From the IMG/VR virus record IMGVR_UViG_3300010412_000002, positions 42,630-106,629 of that record: DNA of 64,000 nucleotides. One strand, given 5' to 3'. Position 1 is the stretch's first letter, and each line of letters starts with the position of its first letter. The translations under genes were made by a program, and so were the position numbers. The notes below the pieces were generated by a model. The model was not told the DNA's origin, made no database searches, and worked only from the letters and a program-made list of their open reading frames with translations. The stretch comes from a virus. Shown here piece by piece: positions 38,101 to 63,273 of the stretch.

Positions 38101-39134
38101 ATAAGATTATCATGCTGACTCCTAATGGTATGCAAGAGATCTCTGCACATGGTATGCGGAAGTTCTTTCAACGTAATATGAACTTTGATCTTAATACTCA
38201 GTTCTTACAACAGCTTGGAATTTCGTATCCATTTCTAGATAATACAACGTATGAGTATGGACTTGGTTATTATGTAACATATGATCCAGAGTTTAAACGA
38301 ATTATTATTACCAAGAAAGATTATAGACTACGAGATGATAAAGTACTTCAACTATCTTCCTTAGGAGCCAATGGTCAAATCAATTGGGTAAATGATAAGT
38401 TTGTTGTAAATAAAAACTCTATTAGCGTTCCTATTCATTTTACGGATACTAATTACTTTGAAAATAAGAGTTGGACATTATCTTATTATGTTCCCTCCCA
38501 ACATTGGGCATCATACCATTCATATTTACCAACTATGTTTTTCAATGATGCTACTAGATTTTATTCTGTAAATGGAGACAACAAGATTTGGAGACATGGA
38601 GGAACATCTAACTATCAAACATATTACGGATTAAAGAAGGATCATATCTTAGACTTTACAAGTTCGAGCAACCCAGCTATTGCTAGCACTTACACAGTGT
38701 TTGATGTTAATTCAAACTTTGTAGATGCAGAAACAGATACTGATGATTTCTTCTTTGACCACGCTATCATCTATAACTCATATCAAAGTTCTGGTAAATT
38801 ACCTGTAGTAAGAAAGACAAGTTCTTTTATGCCTGCCACCGATCAAGGGTTGATTGCAGCCAAAGCAGAACGTAACTGGAGAATATCAGATTTTAGAGAT
38901 ATGGTAGTAGATTACACTGAACCTCTTTTTACAGATGATTGGGATGATATTCTTAACTATCACTATATTGACAAAATTCCAAATGATTCTGTTATAAGTT
39001 CTTCAAAGAACCCTTTTGAACAAGGACGATTTAGAGATCACTATGTTGGATGTCGACTATTCTTTAATCCACGAGAGAACGTTAAAGTAACTACGGATTT
39101 AATATCCTCAATAAATAAATTATCATTTCGATGA
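35115..39134 (+). CDS. Tail stabilisation / muzzle protein (P22 gp10-like)
   Basis: 1,339 residues, mostly beta-structured. The N-terminus MKQVAPNRFNVGLETDSNPKF and the segments KYPISCLFNIRKGCERMIYFTD and NKYRSINLDNLL are of the type found in crAss-like tail stabilisation proteins that form the large muzzle at the end of the short tail. The chain continues with Fn3-like pieces (VGTYQFAIQYIDEDGNNSDW) and many propeller-like strands (DNLYALCARDIYMIP, VDALSNKIIMLTPNGMQEIS, YGLGYYVTYDPEFKRIIITKKDY). It would close the tail and release the DNA and cargo. Position between the tubular gene and cargo genes supports this. It overlaps both neighbours by four bases. Confidence 0.75.
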   Translation: MKQVAPNRFNVGLETDSNPKFASEGTYRFALNSALETTEGGIPTITNEVGNAVSAFLEEGYKVIGACLTNTSEIVIFATNEEMSQIGILNPEINTYTTTISSSCLNFSSKYPISCLFNIRKGCERMIYFTDRYNKYRSINLDNLLSYTSAPTIAQANSEDNWNCDEFSLTPNYQVPIIDLLNVEEGGGQLKVGTYQFAIQYIDEDGNNSDWFNVTTPVPVTVGNPNGDWRYIQGGLPVANTAEPEEGSVPTTSKSIRLSISNLDINYPYYRLAALHSTGAIARVTEVWYLEPVAIGYDTQEYVYRGPNTTIDIVGSLPDININNTPIHVAKAHAQIDQSLWLANLEGTKYNYADFQRAASKILATPITKAVQVVNALNPGDPKCPNTWWDSRSFMPDEVYAFGIQYLYADGSWSPVFHIPGRRPLSSDLGLVNTVESQFLGTGDFPRWRVENTGTESIFAYHETLSTTYPDIQDCSGESIWGEDYDGYTLAGEKIRHHRFPSRQTTPIYDDATDSISIYGVRFDNVDYPHNDIVGHRFLMAERTESNKTVLDNGFVAEIHFDGEVLDYKGVVPHSNDQTGKAFAFHSPKTLLEQRFLNADYYDFHTKAGSAATQDSVNDDIDIKGTAAPAAIYMYVSAFGSGDYNPDDCVPRRMATDSSIFVAPRSSQSQLGSFESALVNSSHFNTAYFVHYETEFQFFGFNLHIAAAKRNVDPYTSLSNIVYYAIQPGYQQTTDAVDIFGGDSFVTNMNYIDTAYINALDPSAKHLKTVVGDYLSGVWVDSELNFALRHGGTDRCNTVFNGVGPVWEHVRDKLVDPDPDTVNPITGQPAVDTKYVTREEFCTEYYAYNKDFSKTVFEKPGVSLSYQFDYCSDCLNSFPNRIRVSQKNYQESSLDNYRIFKDGDRNDLPGVSGNISSLLVYQDNLYALCARDIYMIPINAQTIQTSESLAYLGTGERLAIPPRRLSSTTYPYGGSQHLFSNMVTEFGAIYVDALSNKIIMLTPNGMQEISAHGMRKFFQRNMNFDLNTQFLQQLGISYPFLDNTTYEYGLGYYVTYDPEFKRIIITKKDYRLRDDKVLQLSSLGANGQINWVNDKFVVNKNSISVPIHFTDTNYFENKSWTLSYYVPSQHWASYHSYLPTMFFNDATRFYSVNGDNKIWRHGGTSNYQTYYGLKKDHILDFTSSSNPAIASTYTVFDVNSNFVDAETDTDDFFFDHAIIYNSYQSSGKLPVVRKTSSFMPATDQGLIAAKAERNWRISDFRDMVVDYTEPLFTDDWDDILNYHYIDKIPNDSVISSSKNPFEQGRFRDHYVGCRLFFNPRENVKVTTDLISSINKLSFR

Positions 39135-43233: not shown

Positions 43234-46200
43234 ATGAAGGTAGATGCTTTCACCTACGCACTGATGAACAATATGGATCCGGTAACAGGTGAACCCATTA
43301 AAGGCGGGTTCACTGCCGATCAATTGTATGCTCCACGGCCTGCTCAAGCTATGCCAGGATCTGGTGGCCCCTCTAGTTATATGATGGGATATCGTCCAGG
43401 TATGAACGCTGATTATGTTCGTTCCGCAAACCAGCCTCTCGGTGCATCCTTCCTTAACGGCTTAACTTCAAATATCGTGGTTGGTACCATCGGTAAGATT
43501 GGAGAAGGAGTCGGGATGATTGCTAATATTCCCTCTGCAGTTGCTTCTGGCGACATAGAGAAGCTATTTGATAATTCAATCACTAACTTCTTTGAAAGTA
43601 TTCAAGAAGATGCTAAAGACGCACTACCAGTTTACCAAGGTAGAACATATCAAACTGGAAATATTCTTGCTCGTATGGGCACAGACGACTTCTGGTTTAA
43701 CGATGGATTTGATGCTGTATCATTTCTGTTATCTGCATACGTACCTGGTGGGGCAGTATCTAAAGTATCTAAGTTAGCCAAACTAGGTAAACTTGCTACA
43801 TCAATTAACAACTTGGGCTCTAAAGCAAAGGGCGCTAAGTTAGCCAAACTATTAAAAGAAGTAACTGAAGATCAAGTAGAAAATGCAGTCACACAAGGCG
43901 TTTCAACTGCTTATAACACTATTACCGAAGCTGGATTTGAGGCTAAGGATACATTTGATTCTGTATATCAAGAGTATAAGAAAACTATGTCAGACGAAGA
44001 AGCGAAGAAAAAAGCTTCTCAAGCTGCTGCTAGAGTTTTCACTGCTAACATGTATGGTCTCTTGGTACCTAACGCTATACAGTCTAGCTTTATGCACGGT
44101 AATAATTCTTTTAATCTACGTAAGATTAAGGACGCTGTTCGTAGTGGCAATGGACTTGATGAGATTCTAAATACTAGAGCTAAGATGCTAACTAAACTTG
44201 GCGAAGGTATTGCATCTGAAGGTCTATGGGAAGAAAACTTTCAAAATGCCGTGCAACGATATGAGCGTCGTATGTCTGAAGGATGGGTAGGCGATCGTGC
44301 AGGAGAGTATACATATGGTATGCTCCTAGGTTTAAAAGGTACAGCTAAGGCTTTTATTCCTGGTTTACCTGCTCCAGAAGCTGGCACGGATGAAGATGAA
44401 GCAGCCGCATCAATTGCCCTTGGTGGATTGATTGGTGGTGGTATGGGTATTGGATCTACTATTCTAGAAAATAAGAATCTTAGTAAAGTAATTAAAGGTG
44501 CTGAGGTTGATTGGGCAAGAGTTAAAGATGCTAATAAATTTAGTAAGAATTTACTAGTAGATAACTTATCGGTTAACTTAAAGAGTCATGGCATGGTCGA
44601 TGAAACCGATGCTAATGGTAATCCTACTGGTCGTAAAGTTCCTCAATATGTAGATCCTGATTCAGGTCAAGTATCTATGGATCCACAGAAGATGCAAACT
44701 TTTATGTTGCGTCGAGCTAAGGATATGAATCTTGGAGCAGCACAAGTAGATGCTGTATTAGGTAATAGCCAAAGCTTGATGGACTACAATAGAGAAATGG
44801 CTCTTATGTCCTATGCTTGGCATTTACGGTCAATTCCTAACTTATCAAAAGAAGATATAGACGATCTAATTAAATACGATGTACAACTTCCTGTATCTAG
44901 GGAGTTGGATGGAGTTGTAGATCAGAATTTGCTTTCTCAGAATGTTGATAAGATTCGTGCATACATGCAATTGTATGACGATAGTCTTACGCATACATCT
45001 GGCATGTATGATTTCTCTGACACAAATGTTGACAGGGATTTTGGTGCATATATCCGCAGGGCTTATTTCTATGATGCTGGTAAAAAATTGGCTGCGCAAC
45101 ATATGAAAGAAACTGCATCTGATACTATGCGCCCGCAACTTGATCAGATGATTACAGATATTGATTCTTACTTGGCTCGATTCAGAAATAATATTCCTAA
45201 GTTTCGTCAAGCTTATGACCTTGAAGTAAAGTCTGCAATTGGTCTTGGTAATCGACTTGTTGATATTGAAGAGGCTTTAAAAGTTGAGGGTATTACTGAT
45301 GAGGTTAAGCAAGATCTAGAAGCCGAAAAGAAAGTAATTGAATATCAACTAGAGGAACTTCGAGATGTAGATGGATATTTCTATGATACATTTGGTGGAC
45401 AGCGCGCTACTGAATACGGATCTGCTAGTTTATCTAAGAACGAACCTGCATATCATATGCGCAAACGTGGGGAACAGTTCCGTCCACGTTCAATGGCAGA
45501 AAAGTATTACTACAACAGGGCTTTAACTGATCTATTTAATATTGAAGTATCTAGAGATTTTCAAGACAATGTACCTGTAGAAGAAATTTTTGATAAGGCA
45601 GCTGTACGCCCAGAATTAAGACTCAACAATGCAAATAGAACTGCGTTAAAGGAAGGATTCATTGCAAAGAAAACTGAGGTTGAAAGCAAAAATGATTCCT
45701 TTAATCAAATGAAAGAGTTGCGTGATAATATGCATGCAAGTCTTAATCTTGAATATAATGCAGAACGTCCTGAACTTGTAACTAATGAGGATGAGATGGA
45801 TGAGTATCAAGCTTTCCTAGATGACAATGTTCATGATATGGAAGCTGCAGGTGATCTCCTCTCTGAAGGATTAGGCGAAAATCCATTTACAGAACAGACT
45901 CTACGAGAGAATCCTAATTCTTTTGTGGAATTGTATCGTCGTATGGATAAAGCAATTAAGGACCACGAACTAGCTGTTAAGAAAACACAAGCTGCCCTAG
46001 ACTCTCTTGAAGAACTTTCTAGAGTATCGAATGAACTTGCTGCAGAAAGTGCTATTTACGATAATCTAACTCCTGAGAAGAGGGGCGAAGTATTCAGAGA
46101 TAAATTCTTTGAGCAAAAAACTGCAGGTGTACGTAGTGTTATCGCGCAATTCCGTGCGGACAGAGATGGATTCTCTAGGGGTGTAACAGGGGAAATAAAT

Positions 46201-49200
46201 CTTCTTAACCGTTTACGTAAAATTTTTGCCTCTCGTACCGATATTTCTGATACTTTTAAACAGTCAGTACTAGATCGAATTGATGCTTGGTTAATAGTTT
46301 TAAATCAGGCATCAGAAGTAGCTAGAGGTAATGCTGCCAAACGCTATGAGATTCAACAAATGTCTGAACGATCATATGCTGAAGGACTACATAATCTGTT
46401 TAATAAAGAAGAAATAAAACAATTTCTTATTAATCAGTTTGGACCAGAGATACAAGAGATGTTACGTAAGGTAGCCGAATATGGTGAAAAACCTAATTCA
46501 AAAGAAGGTTACGAGGCTATTCTAGAATTTGTTCGTAGGAAACTTACTACGGAGGAACAACGTACTGCATTTATGCAGAAGTTAATGGAAGAGTCCGACA
46601 AGGATGGGGCTAAAACAAAAGGTATTATTAAGCCTCTAATGTCAGCAAAACTAGGAAGAGAATTCTTTACCTTAGGTGGTCACTATGATAATCCTAACGG
46701 ACTACCTGGCATTATGTTTAGAAATCCATTGATGATTCCACATACGATGTTAATGGATAAAGAAGTATTTGGAGAACGTACTTTAGCGGCGTTTGAAGAA
46801 GGTAAAGAAATTACTCCTTGGCAACGATATAATCTTGATTTCGATTTCCCAAAACTTGTTTATAGTATAAAGGATTCTGGATACGAAGGAATGGATCAAG
46901 CAGAGATCGAAATATTTGATGCACTAGTAGATGCGTATTCTTATGCTAGAGCTTATCATGCTTTGGCTACTATTGCTACTGGTACCACAGATAACATTGA
47001 ATTATACAAGTATGAAGCCCAGGAATTTAATAAACCTGGATCTCATGCCCCCACCAGTCAGCAAGCAGTATCATTCAGAGAAGCTGTAAGACAACTAAAA
47101 AGTCAATTAACTTACCAGCAGTCTGCTGTGTTTGGGATCTATGGCTCAGGTAAAACTGCAATGGTAGCTAGGAAGGTAATGGAATTTTTAATTCCTAATC
47201 CTGATACTCGTAAGGGCAAGGTTCTCGCTTTTGCTCAATCAGAAGCTACATCAAAAACAATTGCAGATTCAGTAAATGGTACCCAAACATCTTTTGATGC
47301 AGTAGCTAATATGACTATTGAACAATTATCTAACTATGAATATGTTGTAGTAGATGAAGCCTTTACGCTTAACTCTAGCCAGATAGAAGTTTTAGATACT
47401 CTTGCTAGACAAAAAATAGTTAAGGTACTATATCTTGGTGACCCATCTCAGAACAAAAGTGAAAGTGTCTCTACTCTACAAGATGGGGTATCTAGAGCAC
47501 AACCTCTTACCGTAGTACTTAGGACTAATAATCCTGCTATTACTAATTTTGCAAATTTCTTTCAATATAATCCAGCAGAAATAGATTCGGCTACAGCAGA
47601 AGCCACCTCTACTCTAGAAGGTAAAACAGAAGCTGATAGTGGCGTATTTGTAACATCTAATAGTCGTCCCGCAGAAGAGCAAATTATTGAAAGAGCAAAG
47701 AATCCAAATGGTAAGTCTAAGATGATTATCTCTAATCATAACCTAGAGACTTACCGACAAGCCTTTGCTGGAACCGATGTAAAGGTTCTGTCTCCTAAGG
47801 ATTCCCAAGGTCAAGAAGCAGATGAAGTATATATTGACCTATCTAAGTCAGGAGAAGCTGTTAACGGTGGGCCATTTGGGTCAGCATTAGCATTTAATAC
47901 TATGGTAGCTACTGCGGCATCACGGGCAAAAGAAATGCTTGTAGTGGCAAATCGACCTGGCCTTGTAATAGACCAAGCAATTATCGCTGATCTTAATGAG
48001 AGCATTCAAGATTTATCTGAAGAGTTTGCTAAGTATGAGCAGGATTATAAAGAATCATTAGATGCTTATAGGGTATTTTATTCTGAATTTACTGGCATAG
48101 CTATTGCGGAAACTCCTCAAGCTCCACCAACTACTCCAACTTCTAACCCCGTTCCAGGACCTGCGGATAATACTGAGCCTACTCCACCACCTCCTGCTCC
48201 ACCTATGGAACCCATGGAAGGTGATGTTAAACTCAAGCATCCACAGAACGATAATCTTATGAAGGTTATGACTGGTACTGGATTTATTGTTAGAACTGTA
48301 AGATCCACTGAAGCAGCTACTAACGAAAAATGGACGGTAATGGCTCCAACTCCTAATGGTAAGTTTAGGACTGTAGGCGTATTGTCTGGAGAAGAGATAG
48401 CTGCAGGCGGGTTTACAGAGGAACAACGAGCTAGAGCAACTTCTCGTAATCAGCTCTTTAAATTAGATACTGATAGAACTCTTGAATACTCAAAGGACCA
48501 GTTCGAGAATTTTATTGTGTCTCCTGTGGAAATTAGAGACGTTAAACCTCTTTGGTTCGAGTTTGGCGAGAACAAGACTACATTAACTGCTGATGGAGTT
48601 CAATGGTTAATGAGAGATTTCTTTCAACAAGAGGGTGTACCTGTACAGGGTAATGTAGATGCAAACATCCGTATTTATCGTCGTCCTAGTGAATTTCCTA
48701 ATACTAGGTTTACGCCCGATATAGGCGTACCTTATATTGTATTATCTGGTTTTCAAGTTCCAGAAGATAGACAATATAGTTTCCCACGAAACTTGCATAT
48801 TCCAATCAGTGCTCCAAAATTAAGTACTGACCATGAAGTATTTAAAACTGCTCAGAAGTTTAAAACTGCTTTTGATACATTTTGTGGTATTGTCAATAAG
48901 GATCCAGTACAGTATTTTAACTCGGAACCTTTTGAGAATTTAATGGATAAATTTAGCAAGTTATATACTGTAGATGTACTTCGTAGAGAAGGAGATCAAA
49001 TTGTTAAAGTAGAAGATTTTGATGAGAAGATACAGGTGCTACTTCGTAACTATCGTTACCCAGAAACAGCTGTAGCTCCACTCTTTGAAATGCTTAAACT
49101 ACTATATGCTCCACATGAATCGCGTCGTAGGTTTACTGCTCAGGAATTAGAAGATTGGAAGCAAGCTAATCCAGAGCAAGCGAAAGACGCAGTTTTTACT

Positions 49201-52200: not shown

Positions 52201-55200
52201 CATGTAAACACTCGTTCAGTTTTAAAGGAAGCTATTCGGGCTGCTGCTAACAATACTACCACTCCGTTATTCCAAAAGAGTAGAGAGATTAGTTCTATTA
52301 TTGGGCAGTTAGAAAGTAATATTGAAGATGCAAGAATTGCAGGGATAAAAGAATTACTAAGTCTTTTAGGGCTTAAGGATAACTATCCTATTATTAATAG
52401 TAAACTTCTTACTCGTAATGCTAAGTCGATTAGCTCCTTCTTAAAGACTATCCTTGCTGTAGGAGAATTACCAACTCATACAGTTGTTACTTACGCTAGT
52501 GGACGAGAAGAATTAGATGAACGTTACGATATAGATGCCTGGTTGCTTAAGAACAACAGTGCTCTTACGGCTTTGAGTAAAGTGGTTGCAGAGGAAAATA
52601 AGATTCCTAAGTCAACTATGATTACGTCAGTTAAAAAACAACGTATCTATAAACATACTCTTTCTAATCCTATCTATAATATTACTCAAAAGATTATTAA
52701 TGTTCAGGAAAGACTCCTTAAAGGCGTTGATCCAGAATCTAGTTTAGTTAAACTTCCTGAATACTTAGAACTACAGTCTAATAAAAATCCTTTCTTAATG
52801 AAGAAGGGCAATGGATTTATGTCTCGTATTTATTCTCTATTTGAGTTAGACGGACATAAAGATAGATTTGGTTCAGGTAGAGAAAATGGTTCTGAAGTAC
52901 TAGCATTCGATAAGAAAAAGCTTCATACTACTTTATTCTCATCTGGATTTTTGTCCAACTTAGAAGGAGGTGTGTATCAGCAATTATTCTATCAGCAAGC
53001 AGATAAGCCGCGTCCTATTGGTGCTACTATCAGTATTCTTAATTCGAAAGAAATAAAGGAATTCATTCCTATTCTGGAAGAGAATATCAAATTCTTTATG
53101 GATGAAGATCGTGCAAATCGTTTCCGAATTCACTCTAAGTCCTACAGCACTAGTAACCTGGTTAATGGAACTCTCTTAGAGAAAGCCATGAAACATCCTA
53201 AAGGCTTCGAGCAAGGCTTTAAAGAATTGATTGCTGAAGAGGCATTTAAACTGGCTAATGATTTAATTGAAGCTAGAGTAGATACAGTAGGTACGGAAGC
53301 TCAAGCAACAGGTCTTGTTGATAAATTTGATACTTCTGAAATGCTGCAGTTACTCAACACTGTATTGGACAAACGTGGTATTGCGCCTATTAAAAGTATA
53401 TCACAACTAGCTGAAAGATCAGTTGATTCTACTGGTAAGTATGTAAATACAGTTGAAATGCTTATGCCATATGCATACGCATACTTAATGAATCACTACA
53501 TCAATAGCTACTTTATGAATCAACTTGTTGCTGGATCTTCACAATTCTACGGATCCGGTGGCACAGTTCTAAAACGTATGACTGGGGCTGCTGGTCCTGG
53601 GCATATAGGCTGGACTCACCCACGCTTTGGAACAAAATCTACTTTTAAAGTTATTGTTGTAGGTGATGAATCGACTACAGCGGATCAAATGTTTGATCAT
53701 GTTAAAGCAGCTCTATCTGGTAAGTATACAGAAGAAGAGATAGCAGCTTTGCGTCACTTCTTTGGTAATGAATCTACGGATAGAACTGATGGTCAAGTAT
53801 TTATTACTCCTGCGCGACTACGAGATCTTCAAAAAGGGTATGGTCGAGAATTTAGACTATCTAATATTCTTAAACCTAAATACTTTGGCCCGCGTATTGA
53901 AGAGCTTGTATATGGAGAAGGAGCAGATCAAACACGTGAAAGAGTATCTATTCCAACATATATTAAACCTTCGGCAGTAGTACTCTCAGATGAATTGCTT
54001 TATCAACCTGGTACTAAGACTCCTCGTCCTGGTATGGAGAAATTGGCAAGCATTCGTCAAGCAATGGAAAGAGATGGTATTGATGAATTAGCATTTGGTT
54101 CTGCAGTGAAAGTAGGAAATCCAAAAGAGAAACATAGCTTAGATGAATTTATTGCTAATCCTTCTCAAAAGGGTATTATGAATCTAAGTAGTGAACACTA
54201 CGGGATACAGTTAAATCCACGTGCTAAAGTAGATTCTTCTGCAGCCTTGTTTACCCAGTTGACTTACTTCTTGAATATTTATTCCTCTTCTGAAGACAAG
54301 AACAATATTGCACGAGCTGAAGCTGTGTACTCTGCTATTGCTTTTCTCTTCGAGAAAGGAGGCAAGTTATTTGAACGAGATACTGATAACTTTAAGACTC
54401 TGTTACAAAAAGCTTTCTCCGAGAAATCAGATGAACTAGTATTTGCAGATCTTATAGAAGCAGGAATTCAACCTAATTCCCCCATCTTTGAACAAAAAGC
54501 TCTCATTAAGTTGGCTTCATTGATGGAGAAACTAGCTATTAAAATTAGATTACCTGGTGGTAAACTTGTTCTTCAATCTGATGTAGGAGTAAACAATCCA
54601 CAAACAGGTCAACCACTAAAGTTTACAAAGGAGAATGGAAAGCTTGTAGCAGAAGTAATTGTTCCTCGTGGCCTATTTCCAGAAGATCTTGCTAAGAGAA
54701 TTGAAGCAGGTGATACACTATTTGAGAATCCTACCTTACTTGGATTCCGTATTCCTTCAACTGAACTTCACTCGGCTGTAGCTATGAAGGTAGTTGGTTT
54801 CTATGATAATGAGGCTAATACAAACATGGTTATTGCTCCTGAGCTTCTAGTAGCACTACACGGTTCAGACTTTGACGTAGACTCGCTTTTCTTTGCTAAA
54901 CGTCCTATCGCTAAGCAAGATGTTAAAGCGTCTTCTAAAGCCTCTATAAACGCTTTATTTGACATAGCTGTTAAATTAGACGAATTAGTTGAGAATGACG
55001 CTTTTAAAGGTCACCCCGCAAGTCATAAGATCTACGACGCTCTTAATAAAATTCGTAAGAACTTTGGATCAAATGACAATAAACTTACCACAGATGACTA
55101 CAATGATATTAGTAGTCCTCGTGCATTAGTAGAGATTGAACAGGATTTTTTAAAATTTGCTCAGCAATATAGATTAGATCCAACATCTATTGGTGCTAGA

Positions 55201-58200
55201 AAAGAATACGCAAAATTAGCAGGACTAGCCTGGCTAGAAAAGAAAACAGTTAGACCTACTATTTCAGAGTATGATCGCAGCCTATCCCCAGATCCTAAAG
55301 TAATTCTCAACTCTAGAAGATGGCAAATTGCTTCTGCAGATACTTATGCACTCTTTGATGTTAAACGTCAAATCTATAACTTAAGTAAAGATTCAGATGT
55401 ACTAGATGTATTTCCAGCTATCCAGAATCTTGTTACAGAATTGTTTACAAGCATTCAAAAGGAGAAGCTAGCCCCCGCTGAGACTTTTATTAAGAAAGGC
55501 GAAATCATAGGATTTAAATTAGGAGAGGATGGTATATACAGATTTGATCCCGAATTCGATACAGAATTATCTAATAAAATTAGAGAAGTAAAACTTCTTG
55601 CAGATCAAGCAAAAGAATTTAAACTTTCTAAACTTTATAGCATTCTTAATCGTCAATATAAAGATCTACTAGGAGTTAAAGAAGAATACTATAAGGGAGC
55701 TATTATTGATACCTTCTTGGAAACCATTTCTGATGCTGAAAGAAATGAATTGCGTATGATGCGTCCTATCTCAAAATCTTTCCTTGTAGGTAAGAAAGCA
55801 GGTAGTAAAACTGAATACGCAGAAGATTCTGCAATCTATTCGGTAGCCAAACATGGACTCGTAAACAAAGAAGATGTAGACCTTTCTAACTATAACGATG
55901 TTTATACTGCCTTTAAGTCTGTTGCTGATATGCAACGACTCACTGGGATCTTTGCGAGCTCAATTAAAGTACTTGCATATATTGGTCGTTCTGGTGTAAG
56001 TGAAGGTACAGAAAAACTTATTGTTAATCTTAATAAGAAAGTCAACAAGTTAGAAAAATTTGTTAACTCTCTCAGTGAATCGGCTACTCCCACACAACTT
56101 GCGCAAGTAGCTGAAATGCAAGAAGAGATTCGTCTTGCTCAGGCAAATCTAAAAGATGTACTGAAAATTGAACGCAGAGAACAGATCGGTAATTCTGCAC
56201 CACGTATTGCAACTAATTTGAGATTTAACTACACAGTTAACGGAGAAGTTCATCATATTGCTAGTATGAATGAGTTCGTTCTCGGTACTAATCAGAATGT
56301 TTCTATATATGATGTGTTAGATGCTCTTGTTAATATCGCTATTGATAATATCAAGGATCAGGAGTTGTTTGCGCTGCAGGCAACAGCTGAGACAGGTACC
56401 ATATATTCTGCGCTTATATCCCTTGGATTGCCTACTGGTGATATCATTGCAATGATGTATCATCCTAGCATGCAAGATTTGCTAGGAATGAATCGCAATG
56501 ATTCTAAAATGCGCCTAGAGAATATGTTGCCAGAATACCTATCCAAAGTAGGTGAATATATTGAAAGTCAATTTGGTCCTCTAGATACTCTGTTGGACGG
56601 TAAGACTATTGGTATTACTGAGTTAGATGAAATGCTAACTAGTGATAAATTTAAAGCTCTTAAAACAGTCTTTACTGAAGATCGTAAACGTCAAATTAAG
56701 TATATTGAGAACTTAGACCAGCTTGATCAACGAGAAGCTTTAATGCTGTATCAATATATGCATATCATGAATACTGGTAAGAAGCTAGGAGATGATATCT
56801 CTACTCTTTCTAAATTCATGGGTATTCTTAGAGGCATGCCGATTAGTTTCGAAGGTATTCAAACCATTGAACAGGCGATTGAGAAGCTAGGTGCGATTAT
56901 TCAAAATGCTGAAGATAGCAAAGAATTAGACTCAATTGACAAACTTACTATGATGGAGGCTTCCGAAGAGCTAAAGACTCTGGGAAGTGTTATGTATACT
57001 AAAAAGAAAGAATCTGGATATAAGATAGCTGGTTTCATGTCTAGAAACCCCCACATCCTTGCAGCGTATAGAAGACTTCTTCAACTTAAAGCTACTATTC
57101 AAAAGAACTTCCCACTATATAGTGAGAAGGTAGTAAGCTTCATGAAAGATCTGTTTGGTAAAGATACTAAGTTAGGTGGTATTGAAGAACAAGGTATACT
57201 AAGAAAAGAACTTAGAAAGTACTTACTTACTCAACTTATTGATAGAGATTTCTATAAAGAGAAATATTACACTACTTACGCATCTAGAAAAACAGGAAAG
57301 TCAAATCGTATAGAACTCTATGGAGTAGACGCTTGGAGTGAAAGATTTATTGATTCTGTTCGTAGAGTTAAGGAGTACGATCAACTACTGGCTAAACAAC
57401 AGAATAGGGCACCAAACGCCTTCTTAGATGCCTTGTATATGGAGAGTGGTAAGCTTCGTTTCAACTTTGATGTTGAGATGGATCGTGCTATGATTGAAGA
57501 ACTGCGACAAGGATTTAAACAACTTCGCTATTTTACTTTTAAAGATGGTTATAAGCAATATAATCCTAAGCAGCCTGGTAATGTAGAACTTTCTTTAAAC
57601 AAAGATCCAAAAACTCTAAGTGATTTTGATCTAGAATATAATGCAACGGAGTTCCAAAAAGATTTCTTGTTTTATCTAGCTCTTGTAGATGGACTTAGAT
57701 TTGCTAACAACAACTATTCGGTAGCAGTTACACCCAGAATTGTCCGTGTACTCACTGATAAGTTAGATGACATGGAGAAGAAGTTTAGAGATGATGCTGA
57801 GTTTAGAGACAAACTAGCTTATCACATTAAGATTGAACTTCTCCGAGAAAACGCAGGACTTGTTTCTACCTACATTAATCAAGATGATAATGAAAATTAT
57901 CTTATTCGATCAGAAAGAACTGAAGGAGATGAAGAACTAAAAGATGAACAAGGTAAGACTGTTGAGCAACCACTAAATGGTGTTGCTACGATTAACGGTA
58001 GACGTATCTTTTATGATAAGGCTTATAATAATCCATATGAAACAACTTCTGAAAGAGAAACCAAGGAAGATGAACTAGACCGCAGATTTCCTGCTTTTAT
58101 TTCTTCTGGATATGATAGTAATGCACAAGTATATATGCGTATTACTAGTCCTACTGATGATGTAATTGCTTATACTTCTGTTGGTAGAGCTTCTGAAACA

Positions 58201-61200
58201 TACACCCGTATTCCTGACATTTCTAAAATGGAAGATGTTAAACAGAACTTTGAACCAACAGTACCTACTCAATATGTTGCAGACGTATCTCAGAATACTA
58301 TGCAAACGTATAAAAACTTTGACTATCTATTACCAGGAGAACCTATTCGACTTGTTGGCTTTGCAGACAAGAGTCGTCTTGCTCCTCGTTACGTAGTTAT
58401 TAAAAACGTAGAAAAGATTTATGAGAAGTTTGGCGTTAAAGAGGAAGTACATTTTCGAGGATATAAGTATACATTTGAAGATTACGTAGTTCCTAGTACT
58501 TTTAGGCAAATTACTGATTTGGCAGATGTTACTCCAGGTACAGCTATGACTTCTTTAGATCTGGTAAACAGTCTTCTAAATACTACAACTATTACAGATT
58601 ATGAGCGAAGTGTCCTGGAATCCTTCCAAGCTAAATATACTAAGGAGGGACGTAAGAATACTCCGATAGTATTATTTATAGATAAATTACCAGAAGGGTC
58701 AGGAGCACAGTACAATGTGGGATTTGGTTATGTAAATATAAAAGCAAATAAAGTAATTGCACGAGAGATAATACATGAATTAACTCATGCAGAAACTCAT
58801 ATGTTAATAGTTGCAGATTACCTAGCAACTGAACCTATGACAGGATTAGCTTTGAGATTAACCAATCCAGAATTTAGAAATGTAGAAGCAGAGTTTTCAA
58901 CTAAGTATAATTTCGAACTAACCACATTTACAACAGAACTTACTAATCTGCAGGTAGAAGCCGCTAAAGCATATAGAGCTCAATTTAATAGTGGACTTGA
59001 GAGTGACGATGAATTCTCTGCCTTCGTAGAGGATTATCATAGTGACTTACTTATACATGAAGGCATACCTTATGGCTTATCTGATCCACACGAAATGCTA
59101 GCAGAGTTTGTTTCTAATGAGCAGTTTAGGGAGTTAACCAAGCTAATTAAAATTACTCCGAAAGAAACATTGTATGATCGAATTATAAATCTCATCTCAC
59201 GTTTTATTCTTGGTAAGCAACAAATTAGTTTATATGATGTCTTAGATGGGCTAATGCGCGAAGGTGTGTTTAATAATATGTATATTCGTACTGAATCATT
59301 ACGAAATACTAGAGGTGATTATAAAATTATTTATACTAGTCAACGAGAAAAATTAAATCTTTTTACTCCACCTACAGATATAGAAGTTGATGAATTTATT
59401 AAGTGGATGAACTCAGTAGGCTATCAATTACCTATAGAAAAATTATCAGACGCAAGCCCAGAGTTTAAAGATATACTAATGAATAGAATAGAGGTAAGTC
59501 ATAACCGATATGGTACAGATGCTCGGATGGACGCAGACAAACAAACAGCTGCACAGTATTCTGTAAATCCAAATAACGAAGCAAAGTACCAGAAAGTTAA
59601 TGCCCCTGGTCTAGATCTTGCACGTGTGTCGGATGATATTGAAGGTTGGATGAGCTTCTTTAAACGTAACCCAAAATCTACTACGACTATTGAGGAGAAA
59701 GCAGATCGCATCTGGGGAAATATTGATCCTATGACTCAGAAGTTTACTCGACATGGATGGATCAATCGTCCAGATTGGGTAGCTAAAGAGGCTGAGATAG
59801 AAGCCCGAGGTAAAAACCGCGGACGATTGGTGCACTCACTTATGGAATTGTATTCTAAGACAGAAGCAGATCCAGAGTTGGAAGCTAGAATTGAGCAATT
59901 GCTGGATATAACTGGTTATGACAGGGAAAAATTTAAATGGGTTCAACAGAAGTTAGATTCTATTTATCGTAACGCTGACATTAATACCAGAGACGATGTA
60001 GATCCAGACCAAAAGGATAAGATAGGTAGTGAGGTAACAGTTGCCAACGACATCTTAGGCTTAGCTGGTACAATTGACATGCTAATTTATCACGCAGATG
60101 GTACTTTAGGCATCAAAGATATCAAAGCTGGTTATTCATTATTTAATAGTTCTACTACGGATATCATGATGTTTGGTGAGCAGCCTAGTGCTCCAGACCT
60201 AATCTATGATACATGGTTTAATCATGCAAAGCTTCAAGTAATGACGTATGCTTTCTTATACAAATCTACTCATCCTGAAGCTAAGTTTAAAGATTTAGAT
60301 GTATTGTGGATGCCAGATAAAGATTCTGTAGATGAGAATACTTTCAGAAATATGGTTAACCCTGAGCCGTATCTTAACATGATTCATTTGATGCTTAAGG
60401 AAAAGATGCCAGAGAAATACCAAGCTCTTAAAGATTCTATGTCTGCAGAAGATTGGAAGAAACTTTGGGATCCTAAAGAATATAAAGCAGGGGTAGGAAA
60501 ATCACTTAGAGATGCGCATACAGTTAGTCCAGATCTTCCTATTGACCAACAAATTAAAGCTAAAATTGAGAAAATTAGGACTATCATACTTACTGATCTT
60601 AATCCTAACACTTATTCAAAGGCCATATTCACTGGGAAAGACGCAGAAAGAAAAACAAAATTAGTTTCAAAACTGATGAAGGAAGTTTTGGAATTGCAGA
60701 AACAAGCTACTGATCTTGATATACAGACTGTAAATGAAGATATCAGCGGGTTCCAAAACTGGTTATTTACTTCTGCTACTACCAGTAATCCTTATATTCA
60801 AGTGTGGGATGAGTTATTCATGGCACGTAGAGATGAATTTAATAAGCAATACGAGCAGTATAGGAATAAATTCTTGTCACTTCTTGATCCTATTAAGAAT
60901 GATTACTTACGACGTCATCCAGGTAAAGCAACATTAGATGCATTAACTAGAGGAGGAGCTAATCATATTAGTTCTAGAGATTTATTTAGCTTTGCATATA
61001 TTCCTGTAAAAGATGAAGGAGGTGATGTAATAGATTATCAACTTCGTCATACAGATGCACATTTCCAAGAACTGATTGATGACAATACTAACTTTGGGCA
61101 TATCAATGCTACTAATATTCATATCTATAAGAACTTCTTAAACTTTGTGAATGATAGTTATGCAAGATTCTTTGTAGATCAGAACGGAACTAAAGCTCTA

Positions 61201-63273
61201 GCCAATAGAACTGCTACTTATTATAAAGGTAAAGGAGCTATTGACAAACCAATTAGTAATATTGAACTGTACAATGGTAAACGTGCTAAATTACATAAAG
61301 AGAATCTAAATAGGGATAAAGAATTATTTGAATACAAACGAGGATTTATGCCTAAGGTTCCACCTCTGTTATCAGAGTTTGGGTTATTAACCAAAGGAGC
61401 TAAACTAGAAGGATCTAAGCAGGCTTCTGCACAAAATTGGTGGAAGACTTGGTACCATAGAAACTTGACTTTCTCAGAAGAACATGCGTTTGAAGGCTTC
61501 GATAAGAAAGCTATGGCAGAAGGACTACCTATGAAGTACCTAAATAATAAACGAGACTTTGCTAGCAATCCTGATCTGTTTTCTTTAAATCTTGAACATC
61601 AATTTGATAGATTTATGAGAGCCTATCTGTGGAAGGAACAAATGGATGATGTATTTGCATATGGACAAGGCATCCGCATAATGCTCAATGCTCAGAAGGA
61701 TAATGTTCCTGACAGAACAATTGAGTTTATGAAGAGAGAACTTGATCTCAAGCTCCGAGGGAGACCTGCTGGGTATGGCAAGAGTGAGAAGTTTATTTCA
61801 AAGAATAGATATAATGTTAGTTTGATTAAAGTACTTTCTAAGATTAAGTATTTATCTGGATTTCCTCTTATGGGTCTTAACTATATAGGAGGTACAGCTA
61901 ACGCTATCTTTACTGGTCTACTTACTTTAAAGCACGCTGCACAAAATCAATCGTTTAAAGGAAAAAGCTTAGATGGATTGAATGGTAGTGAATGGGATTT
62001 CGGACTTAAAGATTTAGCAAAGGCTTGGCCAGAAGTACTAAAGATTATGAAAGCTGGTATGGTAGATGGCAATGTACGAAACTCTAAAGCCTATTTAATG
62101 GCTAAGAAGTTTGGTTACTTCCCAAATAGCTTCGACTGGTCTACTGCTCATAACAACTTAATCACAGATGGTAACAGAGTGTTTAATTCTGAATCAATGT
62201 TCTTATTCTATTCTCTACCTGAAGAAATGATCGCTTTAACTATCATGACTGCACAGTTAATGAGTATGAAAGTTAAAACAGGTCCCTTTGCAGGACAATC
62301 AGTATGGGATCTATACGAAATGGTAGATATAACTGATGAGAATGGTAATACTTACAAGGAAATTAAGTGGAAAGAAGATCCTAACACAGGTAAAGCATAT
62401 GTGCGGGCTGTTGTTAATGTCTCTGCAGATCCTAATAATCCTGAGTATCAAGAACTTACGGAATTAGATGGCAAAGAAGTTAGACGTCTATACAACGCAT
62501 ATGATAGGATGCACGGTGGTTATCGCAAGATAGATAACACAATGTTTCAAAATACGATCTGGGGAACTCTTGCTATTCACTTACGTAGATTCCTACCACA
62601 CGTTTTACGTCAGGCTTTAACTTCTGCTGGCAAGCGTTCCGCAATGGGCTTTTATAAAGTAACTGGAGCGTTAGAAGACGGAACCGAAACGGTAGAATGG
62701 GTATCCAAAGTAATGGAAGGACGTTGGGCTGTTACAGGAAAGATCCTACTTAGACTCTTGGCAAAAGTTGCAAATATAGATAATATTCCTAAAGATGCTG
62801 AAGGATTTGCAGGTATGCTAAGAAGGAAATTAGGTAATCTTGAGATGTACGACATGGATAAACTAGATGCAGGACAATTAGAGGCATTTAGAGATGCATG
62901 GGTAACTTTAATGATACTAGCGGTTGGTATGACCATACCATTCTTTATGGGTGGAGATGGGGATGACGATGATCCAATGAATAGATTTGTTACTAGAATC
63001 TTCAATGATTTAACACAGATGTATAATATCTATGAACTTGGTAAAAACGTAGTTACATGGAATCCTGTATCACTTAATAAGTTACATGACTTCCAAGCCG
63101 ATACTGCTAAAGTACTATTTTCACTAATGTTCTGGGCAGCAGGAGATGAAGAAAAAGCATTTACACCTGATGGTCGATTAGAAGGATTAAATCGACTAAT
63201 GAAAGACTTACCTGTTACATCAATGATTCGAAAAACAGAAGACTTTATGACCTCAGATATCTTCAATGAATAA
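43234..63273 (+). CDS. Giant multi-enzyme virion protein with RNA polymerase core (6,679 residues)
   Basis: One uninterrupted frame of 20,040 bases. In order: an N-terminal virion-type region with hydrophobic stretches (SIALGGLIGGGMGIGST near 393-409); long helices; an SF1 helicase core (1270-1580); a proline-rich linker (about 1627-1668); a second linker rich in Q, T and P (2274-2306); zincin motif HEAFH (2443-2447); an RNA-polymerase core with two barrel regions and DFDVD at 3879-3883; a second zincin motif HELTH (5181-5185); a RecB-like PD-(D/E)XK nuclease (5530-5675); and a C-terminal membrane segment (about 6555-6573). crAss-like phages package a large single-chain RNA polymerase; here it appears fused with other enzymes into about 0.75 MDa. 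It is probably injected and transcribes early genes. Cleavage into parts is possible. A strong terminator follows. Confidence 0.85.
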   Translation: MKVDAFTYALMNNMDPVTGEPIKGGFTADQLYAPRPAQAMPGSGGPSSYMMGYRPGMNADYVRSANQPLGASFLNGLTSNIVVGTIGKIGEGVGMIANIPSAVASGDIEKLFDNSITNFFESIQEDAKDALPVYQGRTYQTGNILARMGTDDFWFNDGFDAVSFLLSAYVPGGAVSKVSKLAKLGKLATSINNLGSKAKGAKLAKLLKEVTEDQVENAVTQGVSTAYNTITEAGFEAKDTFDSVYQEYKKTMSDEEAKKKASQAAARVFTANMYGLLVPNAIQSSFMHGNNSFNLRKIKDAVRSGNGLDEILNTRAKMLTKLGEGIASEGLWEENFQNAVQRYERRMSEGWVGDRAGEYTYGMLLGLKGTAKAFIPGLPAPEAGTDEDEAAASIALGGLIGGGMGIGSTILENKNLSKVIKGAEVDWARVKDANKFSKNLLVDNLSVNLKSHGMVDETDANGNPTGRKVPQYVDPDSGQVSMDPQKMQTFMLRRAKDMNLGAAQVDAVLGNSQSLMDYNREMALMSYAWHLRSIPNLSKEDIDDLIKYDVQLPVSRELDGVVDQNLLSQNVDKIRAYMQLYDDSLTHTSGMYDFSDTNVDRDFGAYIRRAYFYDAGKKLAAQHMKETASDTMRPQLDQMITDIDSYLARFRNNIPKFRQAYDLEVKSAIGLGNRLVDIEEALKVEGITDEVKQDLEAEKKVIEYQLEELRDVDGYFYDTFGGQRATEYGSASLSKNEPAYHMRKRGEQFRPRSMAEKYYYNRALTDLFNIEVSRDFQDNVPVEEIFDKAAVRPELRLNNANRTALKEGFIAKKTEVESKNDSFNQMKELRDNMHASLNLEYNAERPELVTNEDEMDEYQAFLDDNVHDMEAAGDLLSEGLGENPFTEQTLRENPNSFVELYRRMDKAIKDHELAVKKTQAALDSLEELSRVSNELAAESAIYDNLTPEKRGEVFRDKFFEQKTAGVRSVIAQFRADRDGFSRGVTGEINLLNRLRKIFASRTDISDTFKQSVLDRIDAWLIVLNQASEVARGNAAKRYEIQQMSERSYAEGLHNLFNKEEIKQFLINQFGPEIQEMLRKVAEYGEKPNSKEGYEAILEFVRRKLTTEEQRTAFMQKLMEESDKDGAKTKGIIKPLMSAKLGREFFTLGGHYDNPNGLPGIMFRNPLMIPHTMLMDKEVFGERTLAAFEEGKEITPWQRYNLDFDFPKLVYSIKDSGYEGMDQAEIEIFDALVDAYSYARAYHALATIATGTTDNIELYKYEAQEFNKPGSHAPTSQQAVSFREAVRQLKSQLTYQQSAVFGIYGSGKTAMVARKVMEFLIPNPDTRKGKVLAFAQSEATSKTIADSVNGTQTSFDAVANMTIEQLSNYEYVVVDEAFTLNSSQIEVLDTLARQKIVKVLYLGDPSQNKSESVSTLQDGVSRAQPLTVVLRTNNPAITNFANFFQYNPAEIDSATAEATSTLEGKTEADSGVFVTSNSRPAEEQIIERAKNPNGKSKMIISNHNLETYRQAFAGTDVKVLSPKDSQGQEADEVYIDLSKSGEAVNGGPFGSALAFNTMVATAASRAKEMLVVANRPGLVIDQAIIADLNESIQDLSEEFAKYEQDYKESLDAYRVFYSEFTGIAIAETPQAPPTTPTSNPVPGPADNTEPTPPPPAPPMEPMEGDVKLKHPQNDNLMKVMTGTGFIVRTVRSTEAATNEKWTVMAPTPNGKFRTVGVLSGEEIAAGGFTEEQRARATSRNQLFKLDTDRTLEYSKDQFENFIVSPVEIRDVKPLWFEFGENKTTLTADGVQWLMRDFFQQEGVPVQGNVDANIRIYRRPSEFPNTRFTPDIGVPYIVLSGFQVPEDRQYSFPRNLHIPISAPKLSTDHEVFKTAQKFKTAFDTFCGIVNKDPVQYFNSEPFENLMDKFSKLYTVDVLRREGDQIVKVEDFDEKIQVLLRNYRYPETAVAPLFEMLKLLYAPHESRRRFTAQELEDWKQANPEQAKDAVFTEVKFGKAKSNEVAIEEDKKLWEITYRNYNRDGTYEMTDVTKTILGQSAGPMSEAWADLASSNNDIGGYFPRALVAVNPSNKTITKFKPKSFFGSKQSHARAFQWMKDTLRTFEQTLSESIKLIEENDPFNADLEANKKLRTAIDSIIRYDYDSHELEKVIGHLEMLTGTGPYAEDGPVHPAFKIYEKDPLTGDKREITPREGIQGMSTFAVPYSALEAIASPTNYGLAGEHNSLYLNFDLQKDGTVRYDMGSKVINTTTNNAFNSAKVTTKVKRITPTAVTINLSGARAQAQQTPEQTARTTPQPTPETTEESEQLIATLAQISNKTPEQIRDQVVTHFGSATSRDAIRFLKNTIARRNMMFGSSEEDVDEFNQKKTVFADTVPGKLQTIEWAKATLKKILPGLDIDQQVQFLDTLQMSILEKPNEDILGQVHKAIMRLKKDENGRIHDQVVYHEAFHMAWNYLFSERLKTRLREAFRAVYGREMTDKQVTEGLAELYQRFDTRFEKRKTWVRKLIDAVRGFFDTMYKHKEFINDVFFNLDEGKYSGAVRVKVKEGAPDNISFIKDNFGTRGNYLQAVRKIKDRIEHYKLNGKDNLPMTRDEIFEQIYRELEIEMEDARIDMEMQRKDILTEFGVKNLGQLRERLLGLKALLEKGDLNIFEEQKVVDDILKIEQAFVPYNSAKNAHILFTTLTGVNKHSKKYVFYEIVENLYPSYKAEDAYQFELDTLTEEDTAEFTQEDVEALDIDGDASVSELQEAFEGLKAETIDHAKVNWSSKQSLALKDIFAFIPLLQEDSNEPEIIDGIRSMIHPKIAYVRGLQLLLQLDLNGSNLLDQIVYLQKHEELNRWDRSILHAITELFGKLADIEERHDSYSIVAKSYPLDSRVEYYFFNDRRGGTDAHATTYEDAKELVAKDPERYKLVSAGDKTLSSLYAKAVEEIPSLTREEFSNIFYNREAINSIANLQSFMGSLKDTTYKMSIKSTRGKTRTLSMVDARGGDSHVNTRSVLKEAIRAAANNTTTPLFQKSREISSIIGQLESNIEDARIAGIKELLSLLGLKDNYPIINSKLLTRNAKSISSFLKTILAVGELPTHTVVTYASGREELDERYDIDAWLLKNNSALTALSKVVAEENKIPKSTMITSVKKQRIYKHTLSNPIYNITQKIINVQERLLKGVDPESSLVKLPEYLELQSNKNPFLMKKGNGFMSRIYSLFELDGHKDRFGSGRENGSEVLAFDKKKLHTTLFSSGFLSNLEGGVYQQLFYQQADKPRPIGATISILNSKEIKEFIPILEENIKFFMDEDRANRFRIHSKSYSTSNLVNGTLLEKAMKHPKGFEQGFKELIAEEAFKLANDLIEARVDTVGTEAQATGLVDKFDTSEMLQLLNTVLDKRGIAPIKSISQLAERSVDSTGKYVNTVEMLMPYAYAYLMNHYINSYFMNQLVAGSSQFYGSGGTVLKRMTGAAGPGHIGWTHPRFGTKSTFKVIVVGDESTTADQMFDHVKAALSGKYTEEEIAALRHFFGNESTDRTDGQVFITPARLRDLQKGYGREFRLSNILKPKYFGPRIEELVYGEGADQTRERVSIPTYIKPSAVVLSDELLYQPGTKTPRPGMEKLASIRQAMERDGIDELAFGSAVKVGNPKEKHSLDEFIANPSQKGIMNLSSEHYGIQLNPRAKVDSSAALFTQLTYFLNIYSSSEDKNNIARAEAVYSAIAFLFEKGGKLFERDTDNFKTLLQKAFSEKSDELVFADLIEAGIQPNSPIFEQKALIKLASLMEKLAIKIRLPGGKLVLQSDVGVNNPQTGQPLKFTKENGKLVAEVIVPRGLFPEDLAKRIEAGDTLFENPTLLGFRIPSTELHSAVAMKVVGFYDNEANTNMVIAPELLVALHGSDFDVDSLFFAKRPIAKQDVKASSKASINALFDIAVKLDELVENDAFKGHPASHKIYDALNKIRKNFGSNDNKLTTDDYNDISSPRALVEIEQDFLKFAQQYRLDPTSIGARKEYAKLAGLAWLEKKTVRPTISEYDRSLSPDPKVILNSRRWQIASADTYALFDVKRQIYNLSKDSDVLDVFPAIQNLVTELFTSIQKEKLAPAETFIKKGEIIGFKLGEDGIYRFDPEFDTELSNKIREVKLLADQAKEFKLSKLYSILNRQYKDLLGVKEEYYKGAIIDTFLETISDAERNELRMMRPISKSFLVGKKAGSKTEYAEDSAIYSVAKHGLVNKEDVDLSNYNDVYTAFKSVADMQRLTGIFASSIKVLAYIGRSGVSEGTEKLIVNLNKKVNKLEKFVNSLSESATPTQLAQVAEMQEEIRLAQANLKDVLKIERREQIGNSAPRIATNLRFNYTVNGEVHHIASMNEFVLGTNQNVSIYDVLDALVNIAIDNIKDQELFALQATAETGTIYSALISLGLPTGDIIAMMYHPSMQDLLGMNRNDSKMRLENMLPEYLSKVGEYIESQFGPLDTLLDGKTIGITELDEMLTSDKFKALKTVFTEDRKRQIKYIENLDQLDQREALMLYQYMHIMNTGKKLGDDISTLSKFMGILRGMPISFEGIQTIEQAIEKLGAIIQNAEDSKELDSIDKLTMMEASEELKTLGSVMYTKKKESGYKIAGFMSRNPHILAAYRRLLQLKATIQKNFPLYSEKVVSFMKDLFGKDTKLGGIEEQGILRKELRKYLLTQLIDRDFYKEKYYTTYASRKTGKSNRIELYGVDAWSERFIDSVRRVKEYDQLLAKQQNRAPNAFLDALYMESGKLRFNFDVEMDRAMIEELRQGFKQLRYFTFKDGYKQYNPKQPGNVELSLNKDPKTLSDFDLEYNATEFQKDFLFYLALVDGLRFANNNYSVAVTPRIVRVLTDKLDDMEKKFRDDAEFRDKLAYHIKIELLRENAGLVSTYINQDDNENYLIRSERTEGDEELKDEQGKTVEQPLNGVATINGRRIFYDKAYNNPYETTSERETKEDELDRRFPAFISSGYDSNAQVYMRITSPTDDVIAYTSVGRASETYTRIPDISKMEDVKQNFEPTVPTQYVADVSQNTMQTYKNFDYLLPGEPIRLVGFADKSRLAPRYVVIKNVEKIYEKFGVKEEVHFRGYKYTFEDYVVPSTFRQITDLADVTPGTAMTSLDLVNSLLNTTTITDYERSVLESFQAKYTKEGRKNTPIVLFIDKLPEGSGAQYNVGFGYVNIKANKVIAREIIHELTHAETHMLIVADYLATEPMTGLALRLTNPEFRNVEAEFSTKYNFELTTFTTELTNLQVEAAKAYRAQFNSGLESDDEFSAFVEDYHSDLLIHEGIPYGLSDPHEMLAEFVSNEQFRELTKLIKITPKETLYDRIINLISRFILGKQQISLYDVLDGLMREGVFNNMYIRTESLRNTRGDYKIIYTSQREKLNLFTPPTDIEVDEFIKWMNSVGYQLPIEKLSDASPEFKDILMNRIEVSHNRYGTDARMDADKQTAAQYSVNPNNEAKYQKVNAPGLDLARVSDDIEGWMSFFKRNPKSTTTIEEKADRIWGNIDPMTQKFTRHGWINRPDWVAKEAEIEARGKNRGRLVHSLMELYSKTEADPELEARIEQLLDITGYDREKFKWVQQKLDSIYRNADINTRDDVDPDQKDKIGSEVTVANDILGLAGTIDMLIYHADGTLGIKDIKAGYSLFNSSTTDIMMFGEQPSAPDLIYDTWFNHAKLQVMTYAFLYKSTHPEAKFKDLDVLWMPDKDSVDENTFRNMVNPEPYLNMIHLMLKEKMPEKYQALKDSMSAEDWKKLWDPKEYKAGVGKSLRDAHTVSPDLPIDQQIKAKIEKIRTIILTDLNPNTYSKAIFTGKDAERKTKLVSKLMKEVLELQKQATDLDIQTVNEDISGFQNWLFTSATTSNPYIQVWDELFMARRDEFNKQYEQYRNKFLSLLDPIKNDYLRRHPGKATLDALTRGGANHISSRDLFSFAYIPVKDEGGDVIDYQLRHTDAHFQELIDDNTNFGHINATNIHIYKNFLNFVNDSYARFFVDQNGTKALANRTATYYKGKGAIDKPISNIELYNGKRAKLHKENLNRDKELFEYKRGFMPKVPPLLSEFGLLTKGAKLEGSKQASAQNWWKTWYHRNLTFSEEHAFEGFDKKAMAEGLPMKYLNNKRDFASNPDLFSLNLEHQFDRFMRAYLWKEQMDDVFAYGQGIRIMLNAQKDNVPDRTIEFMKRELDLKLRGRPAGYGKSEKFISKNRYNVSLIKVLSKIKYLSGFPLMGLNYIGGTANAIFTGLLTLKHAAQNQSFKGKSLDGLNGSEWDFGLKDLAKAWPEVLKIMKAGMVDGNVRNSKAYLMAKKFGYFPNSFDWSTAHNNLITDGNRVFNSESMFLFYSLPEEMIALTIMTAQLMSMKVKTGPFAGQSVWDLYEMVDITDENGNTYKEIKWKEDPNTGKAYVRAVVNVSADPNNPEYQELTELDGKEVRRLYNAYDRMHGGYRKIDNTMFQNTIWGTLAIHLRRFLPHVLRQALTSAGKRSAMGFYKVTGALEDGTETVEWVSKVMEGRWAVTGKILLRLLAKVANIDNIPKDAEGFAGMLRRKLGNLEMYDMDKLDAGQLEAFRDAWVTLMILAVGMTIPFFMGGDGDDDDPMNRFVTRIFNDLTQMYNIYELGKNVVTWNPVSLNKLHDFQADTAKVLFSLMFWAAGDEEKAFTPDGRLEGLNRLMKDLPVTSMIRKTEDFMTSDIFNE
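47041..47973 (+). other. SF1 helicase core inside the giant protein
   Basis: Residues about 1270-1580. Visible motifs: LTYQQSAVFGIYGSGKT with Walker A G1304-S-G-K1307-T, Walker B VVVDEAF (D1374, E1375), motif III YLGDPSQ (1400-1406), motif V-like KDSQGQEADEVYIDLS (about 1523-1536) and motif VI VATAASRAKEML with R1564. The order and the GDPxQ motif indicate superfamily 1, of the RecD/Upf1 kind. It may unwind or translocate along injected DNA or displace transcripts during early transcription. It is followed by a flexible proline-rich linker. Confidence 0.85.
50161..50793 (+). other. First zincin metallopeptidase-like domain in the giant protein
   Basis: Residues about 2310-2520. The zinc motif is H2443-E-A-F-H2447 in VVYHEAFHMAWNY, and a likely third ligand is E2481 or E2485 in TEGLAELYQRF, about 35 residues later, a spacing usual for gluzincin-like phage domains. 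It lies just after a low-complexity linker and before the polymerase part. It could release the polymerase part from the chain or act on host proteins. Catalysis is inferred from the motif. Confidence 0.7.
53701..54933 (+). other. RNA polymerase catalytic core (two double-psi beta-barrel regions)
   Basis: Residues about 3490-3900. The first barrel region shows TDRTDGQVFITPARL (3515-3529), K3578 in TYIKPSAVV and K3626 in FGSAVKVG, a lysine pattern as in beta-type barrels of QDE-1/crAss-like polymerases. The second shows ENPTLLGFRIPSTELHSA, alignable with the PTLHRxGIQAF piece of cellular beta-prime, and then HGSDFDVDSLFF with D3879, D3881 and D3883, the metal-binding DxDxD. Cellular enzymes have DFDGD, so glycine is replaced by valine here. 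The spacing from the PTL motif to the aspartates is as in beta-prime. Confidence 0.8.
58681..59133 (+). other. Second zincin metallopeptidase-like domain in the giant protein
   Basis: Residues about 5150-5300. H5181-E-L-T-H5185 occurs in AREIIHELTHAETHM after a strand-rich lead (GFGYVNIKANKV). About 100 residues later SDPHEMLAEFVSNEQF offers E5287 or E5291 as third zinc ligand. This HELTH...EMLAEFVSN arrangement is common in polyvalent proteins of phages and mobile elements. It lies between the polymerase part and the nuclease. Confidence 0.7.
59731..60303 (+). other. RecB-like PD-(D/E)XK nuclease domain in the giant protein
   Basis: Residues about 5500-5690 contain the full RecB/Cas4-type motif series: H5534 in RGRLVHSLMEL, E5600 in IGSEVTVAND, D5615 in LAGTIDMLIY, D5629-x-K5631 in LGIKDIKAGYS, and Q5668-x3-Y5672 in KLQVMTYAFLY. 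Spacing and hydrophobic contexts are typical, so an active deoxyribonuclease is likely. It may process host DNA or DNA ends after injection. Confidence 0.85.

Follow-up and report, generated by a model that had tools for sequence, protein, structure and literature searches.

Giant open reading frame and its genomic context

The window, that is, the whole 64,000-nucleotide stretch analysed here, covers bases 42630–106629 of a 106,629-base IMG/VR virus record and contains on the plus strand, at 43234–63273, a single uninterrupted open reading frame of 6,679 codons (6,679 aa, 757 kDa), which carries a predicted RNA polymerase. Upstream of it on the same strand lie the genes of the large terminase subunit (TerL), portal, major capsid protein (MCP), and virion proteins, so that the giant frame stands beside virion and cargo genes. 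The best match of TerL is phage phi14:2 (33% identity, 4e-97), that of the portal is the group of Flavobacterium FpV4-type phages, and terminase, portal, and major head protein are also named by PHROGs; by these sequence matches the record is assigned to a crAss-like phage genome. The genes of PolA and DnaB are located on the minus strand in the left part of the record, and this left half is likely to be the early region. A full-length GroEL chaperonin gene was also found at 2386–4017 on the plus strand, upstream of the gene of the terminase (TIGR02348 equivalog, 585 bits against a cut-off of 582; phrog_5725).

The layout of the giant protein was resolved with segment HMMs, which were built from the window protein and four relatives and compared with the proteins of phi14:2, crAss001, and other crAss-like phages, the reversed-sequence controls reaching at most 6.6 bits overall. 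The N-terminal segment (residues 1–700; 43234–45333, plus strand) is homologous to the virion protein gp67 of phi14:2, matching its residues 100–414 at 75.8 bits and the cr111 subunit at 26.1 bits, with a reversed-sequence control of ≤0.1 bits. Then follows a domain of SF1 helicase type (residues 1294–1570; 47113–47943, plus strand) with the Walker A sequence GIYGSGKT at residue 1301, which was detected by Pfam (AAA_30, 4e-10; Viral_helicase1, 2e-6) and is kept in relatives. The polymerase core as modelled occupies residues 3417–4596 (53482–57021, plus strand), and the segment HMM of residues 3100–4550 matches phi14:2 gp66 at 95.6 bits. The C-terminal segment (residues 5080–6679; 58471–63270, plus strand) is homologous to phi14:2 gp65 (residues 5080–5450 at 53.4 bits and 5850–6679 at 34.5 bits) and to crAss001 gp49 (25.6 bits), and encloses a PD-(D/E)XK nuclease domain at residues 5522–5724 (59797–60405, plus strand; Pfam PDDEXK_1, 7.7e-8; phrog_298, 5.3e-14). 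In phi14:2 gp67, gp66, and gp65 are the products of three adjacent genes, transcribed in that order and annotated from virion MS/MS proteomics. As judged by these homologies, the giant frame joins the counterparts of all three in identical order and adds an SF1 helicase and a PD-(D/E)XK nuclease.

The relatives have this layout in common, and collinear frames of up to 6,651 aa occur in other environmental contigs; polymerase frames of 6,047–6,651 aa were present in 8 of the 35 records, while the rest were shorter, some being ended by contig ends. The large size and multidomain character of crAss-like polymerases are not new, because genes of up to about 6,000 aa are already mentioned in a review (PMC10136315) and transcription proteins of large size and several domains, PDDEXK being among them in some cases, have been described as well (PMC7886860). 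No description of exactly this complete fusion was found in the literature searched, most subscription papers lying outside its reach, and the window protein is a fresh example of a known polymerase type with an unusually complete fusion. As a separate observation, the helicase is N-terminal of the polymerase in the window frame and C-terminal in the Suoliviridae giants (compared with cr50_1); since it sits on opposite sides in the two lineages, it was either fused twice or moved.

Profile homology and predicted structure of the polymerase core

When the polymerase core was searched as a single sequence, no polymerase match was obtained by phmmer against PDB, nor in Pfam or PHROGs, and the search for related loci with the single protein sequence also gave no match; for this reason profiles were needed. 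By tblastn of 1,000 residues 40 phage records were retrieved, all of them crAss-like/Crassvirales (best 2e-8) and most annotated as RNA polymerase. A profile free of phi14:2, composed of 30 sequences (the window protein and 29 environmental relatives), matches the phi14:2 polymerase structure 6VR4 at E 1.7e-52 across gp66 residues 869–2031, so that homology to gp66 extends over the core, and the same profile found no other credible match in PDB. The much lower value of profile A1 against 6VR4 (1.2e-126) was set aside as circular, since gp66 is contained in A1, and the weak calmodulin matches of A1, which fall in a variable segment, were dropped. In one related locus (L021; record G008, 34748–38146) an in-frame TGA was observed within the polymerase match, which may reflect a sequencing error, recoding of the stop codon, or a genuine break in the frame.

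The AlphaFold (AF2) model of residues 3417–4596 (pLDDT 78, pTM 0.77) was aligned with the phi14:2 polymerase, as the initial annotation had proposed, and 6VR4 proved to be the best structural match (VIA-align, Z 17.6, rmsd 4.1, 757 residues), followed by RDR2/QDE-1 (Z 12.3–14.8) and by phage polymerases of P23-45 type (Z about 10). Foldseek also put 6VR4 and QDE-1 first, with a loose superposition of the long model (TM 0.50, rmsd 12.4), and the viral models closest to the core were crAss-like giants. The suggested tie to crAss-like and QDE-1-type polymerases is thus supported by both the profile match and the Z ranking. Multisubunit polymerases were absent from the top rows for the full core model, an absence that excludes nothing. 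Both barrels belong to one polypeptide, a single model being aligned over 757 residues with the single-chain 6VR4.

The first of the two is rich in strands and was assigned from the 6VR4 alignment as the candidate beta-type barrel, DPBB-B (residues 3545–3671, model strands 129–255; 53866–54246, plus strand); its K3626 (K210 of alignment A3) is invariant. The second is the beta-prime-type double-psi beta-barrel DPBB-A (residues 3772–3899; 54547–54930, plus strand), whose double-psi type was recognized in a model of the isolated domain (residues 3734–3907, pLDDT 83). The isolated barrel aligns with beta-prime/Rpb1 345–495 and with 6VR4, in particular with E. coli beta-prime 347–475 and Rpb1 343–494; its Z values against the E. 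coli beta-prime chains 9msf_J, 6asx_J, and 8sy7_J are middling (8.1–8.5), but nearly all of the best-ranked entries are polymerases. The last aligned pairs are model residue 161 with E. coli 475 and model residue 159 with yeast Pol II 494. Provided that no gap falls within the final ten residues, both offsets would place model residues 146–150 (DFDVD) on the catalytic DxDGD. In the large model the block holding the catalytic loop (461–470) is of modest confidence (pLDDT about 62).

Downstream, the conserved helix motif NIAIDNIKDQ (residues 4367–4376; 56332–56361, plus strand) has equivalents in gp66 (NAFVDNAKDP), crAss001, cr50, and others, and probably represents the bridge-helix/trigger-loop region. 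The distance from the catalytic motif to this helix is 493 residues in the window protein against 169–316 in the relatives measured, and residues 3900–4366 (about 54931–56331) hold a long insertion of mixed helices in the window lineage.

Catalytic loop, upstream element, and the residue at the glycine position

The stretch 54712–54900 is translated as DTLFENPTLLGFRIPSTELHSAVAMKVVGFYDNEANTNMVIAPELLVALHGSDFDVDSLFFAK, which lies within the uninterrupted 6,679-codon frame and confirms the initially annotated DFDVD in a beta-prime-like context. The predicted catalytic loop GSDFDVD (residues 3877–3883; 54862–54882, plus strand) was delimited by alignment conservation and includes DFDVD at residues 3879–3883 (nucleotides 54868–54882). 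Its three putative metal-binding aspartates, D3879, D3881, and D3883, whose retention had been pointed out before, are invariant in 78 distinct aligned sequences, as are R3839, P3841, and G3877. By itself the DxDxD pattern carries little weight, since the giant protein contains it four times; two scans keyed on separate parts, one on the motif only and the other on the upstream RIP element only, each recovered the other part, and by these alignments the sequence context of DFDVD is well beyond chance. The motif falls within the double-psi barrel that matches beta-prime/Rpb1 and 6VR4, and sequence and model together identify DFDVD as the predicted metal-binding loop of the beta-prime-type barrel in a two-barrel RNA polymerase.

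The register against beta-prime had to be revised. The sequence PTLLG was originally equated with PTLHR of beta-prime, but PTL is not kept in relatives and the match is coincidental; the "similar spacing" was likewise counted from the wrong anchor, the distance from PTL to the first aspartate being 46 residues against 33 in E. coli beta-prime. According to the alignment the conserved upstream element is R-I-P-S/T, represented in the window protein by GFRIPS (residues 3837–3842, with invariant R3839 and P3841; 54742–54759, plus strand), and the distance from the start of GYRIP to GSD is fixed (39 residues in relatives and 40 in the window protein). An hhalign comparison of an eight-sequence profile with E. 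coli beta-prime pairs RIPS with R425-A-P-T and DFDVD with DFDGD at a best E of 0.15, which is below significance and serves only to suggest the register. In beta-prime R425 contacts the NTP sugar, and R3839 is likely its counterpart.

The valine in place of glycine had been considered as drift of the motif, and comparison with other crAss-like polymerases does not bear this out. Phi14:2 gp66 itself has DFDID at 1361–1365, crAss001 and cr110 have DFDVD, cr111 has DLDVD, and cr50, cr118, and cr271 have DFDID. The count from the first scan was discarded as evidence, since its search pattern itself demanded V or I, and a motif-free scan keyed on RIP[ST][TS][EGD][LIM]HS, with DxDxD ignored, was used instead. 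Among its 36 distinct sequences valine was found in 31, isoleucine in 4, alanine in 1, and glycine in none, and all 36 keep the three aspartates; the 78-row alignment, a tally that mixes both scans including the one whose pattern required V or I, gave V 42, I 35, and A 1. The valine is a family state and not drift in the window protein, because the motif-free scan gave V or I nearly throughout and no G; as far as the aligned sequences indicate, V/I here seems to mark the crAss-like branch, and the lack of glycine can no longer be regarded as unusual. Two individual variants were recorded about 40 residues past the RIP element: GSDFDAD in L121, the one sequence with neither V nor I at the fourth position of the motif, and GCDYDVD in L119, with a cysteine preceding the first aspartate.

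Interpretation and relation to known polymerases

Profile searches, structural comparison, and residue conservation all point to one site, which argues for its reading as a polymerase active site: with a probability of roughly 0.93, as estimated from sequences and models, the stretch encodes the catalytic loop of DPBB-A in a two-barrel RNA polymerase of a crAss-like phage. A bolder and tentative proposal is that the whole injected transcription apparatus (gp67-, gp66-, and gp65-type parts with helicase and nuclease) functions as a single uncleaved chain of 757 kDa, threaded through the tail and refolded once inside the host. It competes with another explanation, which leaves the polymerase assignment untouched and is possible at well under even odds, namely that the giant frame is translated as one chain, which a protease then processes to gp67-, gp66-, and gp65-like products; the polymerase would work in the manner of phi14:2, and fusion would exist at gene level only. 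In phi14:2 and crAss001 the proteins matched by the segments are indeed separate virion proteins, and in some related records the polymerase frames are only 2,680–2,922 aa long; against cleavage, Pfam found no protease domain in the giant frame.

That the exchange of glycine for valine is the sign of a polymerase which has lost or changed its activity, a degenerate paralogue retained as structural cargo, is very improbable: the glycine does stand in cellular beta-prime and in gp96 of phage P23-45 (DFDGD, PMC10770324), but phi14:2 gp66 is active in vitro (PMC10136315) with isoleucine there, and V/I is the rule across a family that keeps all three aspartates. That DxDxD is fortuitous and the giant protein an unrelated structural one, as the fourfold occurrence of the pattern and the empty Pfam, PHROGs, and single-sequence PDB searches of the region might suggest, is refuted by the 6VR4 profile match (1.7e-52) and structural match (Z 17.6), with which the conservation agrees.

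For the crAss-like polymerase reading a mechanism can be proposed from homologues, which are virion cargo transcribing early genes without the host polymerase (PMC10172136, PMC10136315). The three aspartates would hold the catalytic Mg2+, and R3839 would contact the incoming NTP. By homology with the phi14:2 annotation and crAss001 proteomics (PMC10172136) the giant protein may be packaged in the virion; it would then be ejected ahead of the DNA and transcribe early genes independently of the host polymerase. For the helicase and nuclease of the fusion a helping role in the entry of DNA or the handling of the template is probable, which is the weakest step of this scheme. These data place an environmental crAss-like phage clade firmly in the phi14:2-type polymerase family, and the complete three-gene fusion can be considered a natural map of the proteins cooperating in the injected transcription machine.

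Among known systems the closest is phi14:2 gp66 (PDB 6VR4), a two-barrel single-chain polymerase and the best structural match, which shares the RIP element 39–40 residues before GSDFD[IV]D and the downstream DNxKDP/Q helix; its gene product is active in vitro, rifampicin-resistant, and transcribes early genes (PMC10136315). It differs in being a 2,180-aa protein separate from gp65 and gp67, in DFDID versus DFDVD, and in a distance of 252 residues from the motif to the DNxK helix. Bacteroides phage crAss001 has an identical DFDVD, and its gp50, gp49, and gp47, which are virion cargo (PMC10172136), show homology to segments of the window protein, but there they are three separate proteins, in which no match was obtained for the segments with the helicase and the nuclease. 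The Suoliviridae giants cr50_1 and cr118_1 (4,774 and 4,946 aa) likewise combine polymerase and SF1 helicase in one giant frame, while their helicase lies C-terminal of the polymerase and the gp65-like protein of cr50_1 is encoded by a separate gene. The RNA-interference polymerases QDE-1 and RDR2 share the two-barrel fold as the next-best structural matches (Z 12–15), although they are eukaryotic, cellular, and without phage context; they carry glycine in the catalytic motif. In Thermus phage P23-45 the polymerase is also found inside a giant virion protein, gp96 (Z about 10), but is fused to a 5,002-aa tape measure and not to crAss-like cargo proteins (PMC10770324). Cellular beta-prime differs in its motifs, having NADFDGD and PTLHR where the window protein has GSDFDVD and GFRIPS.
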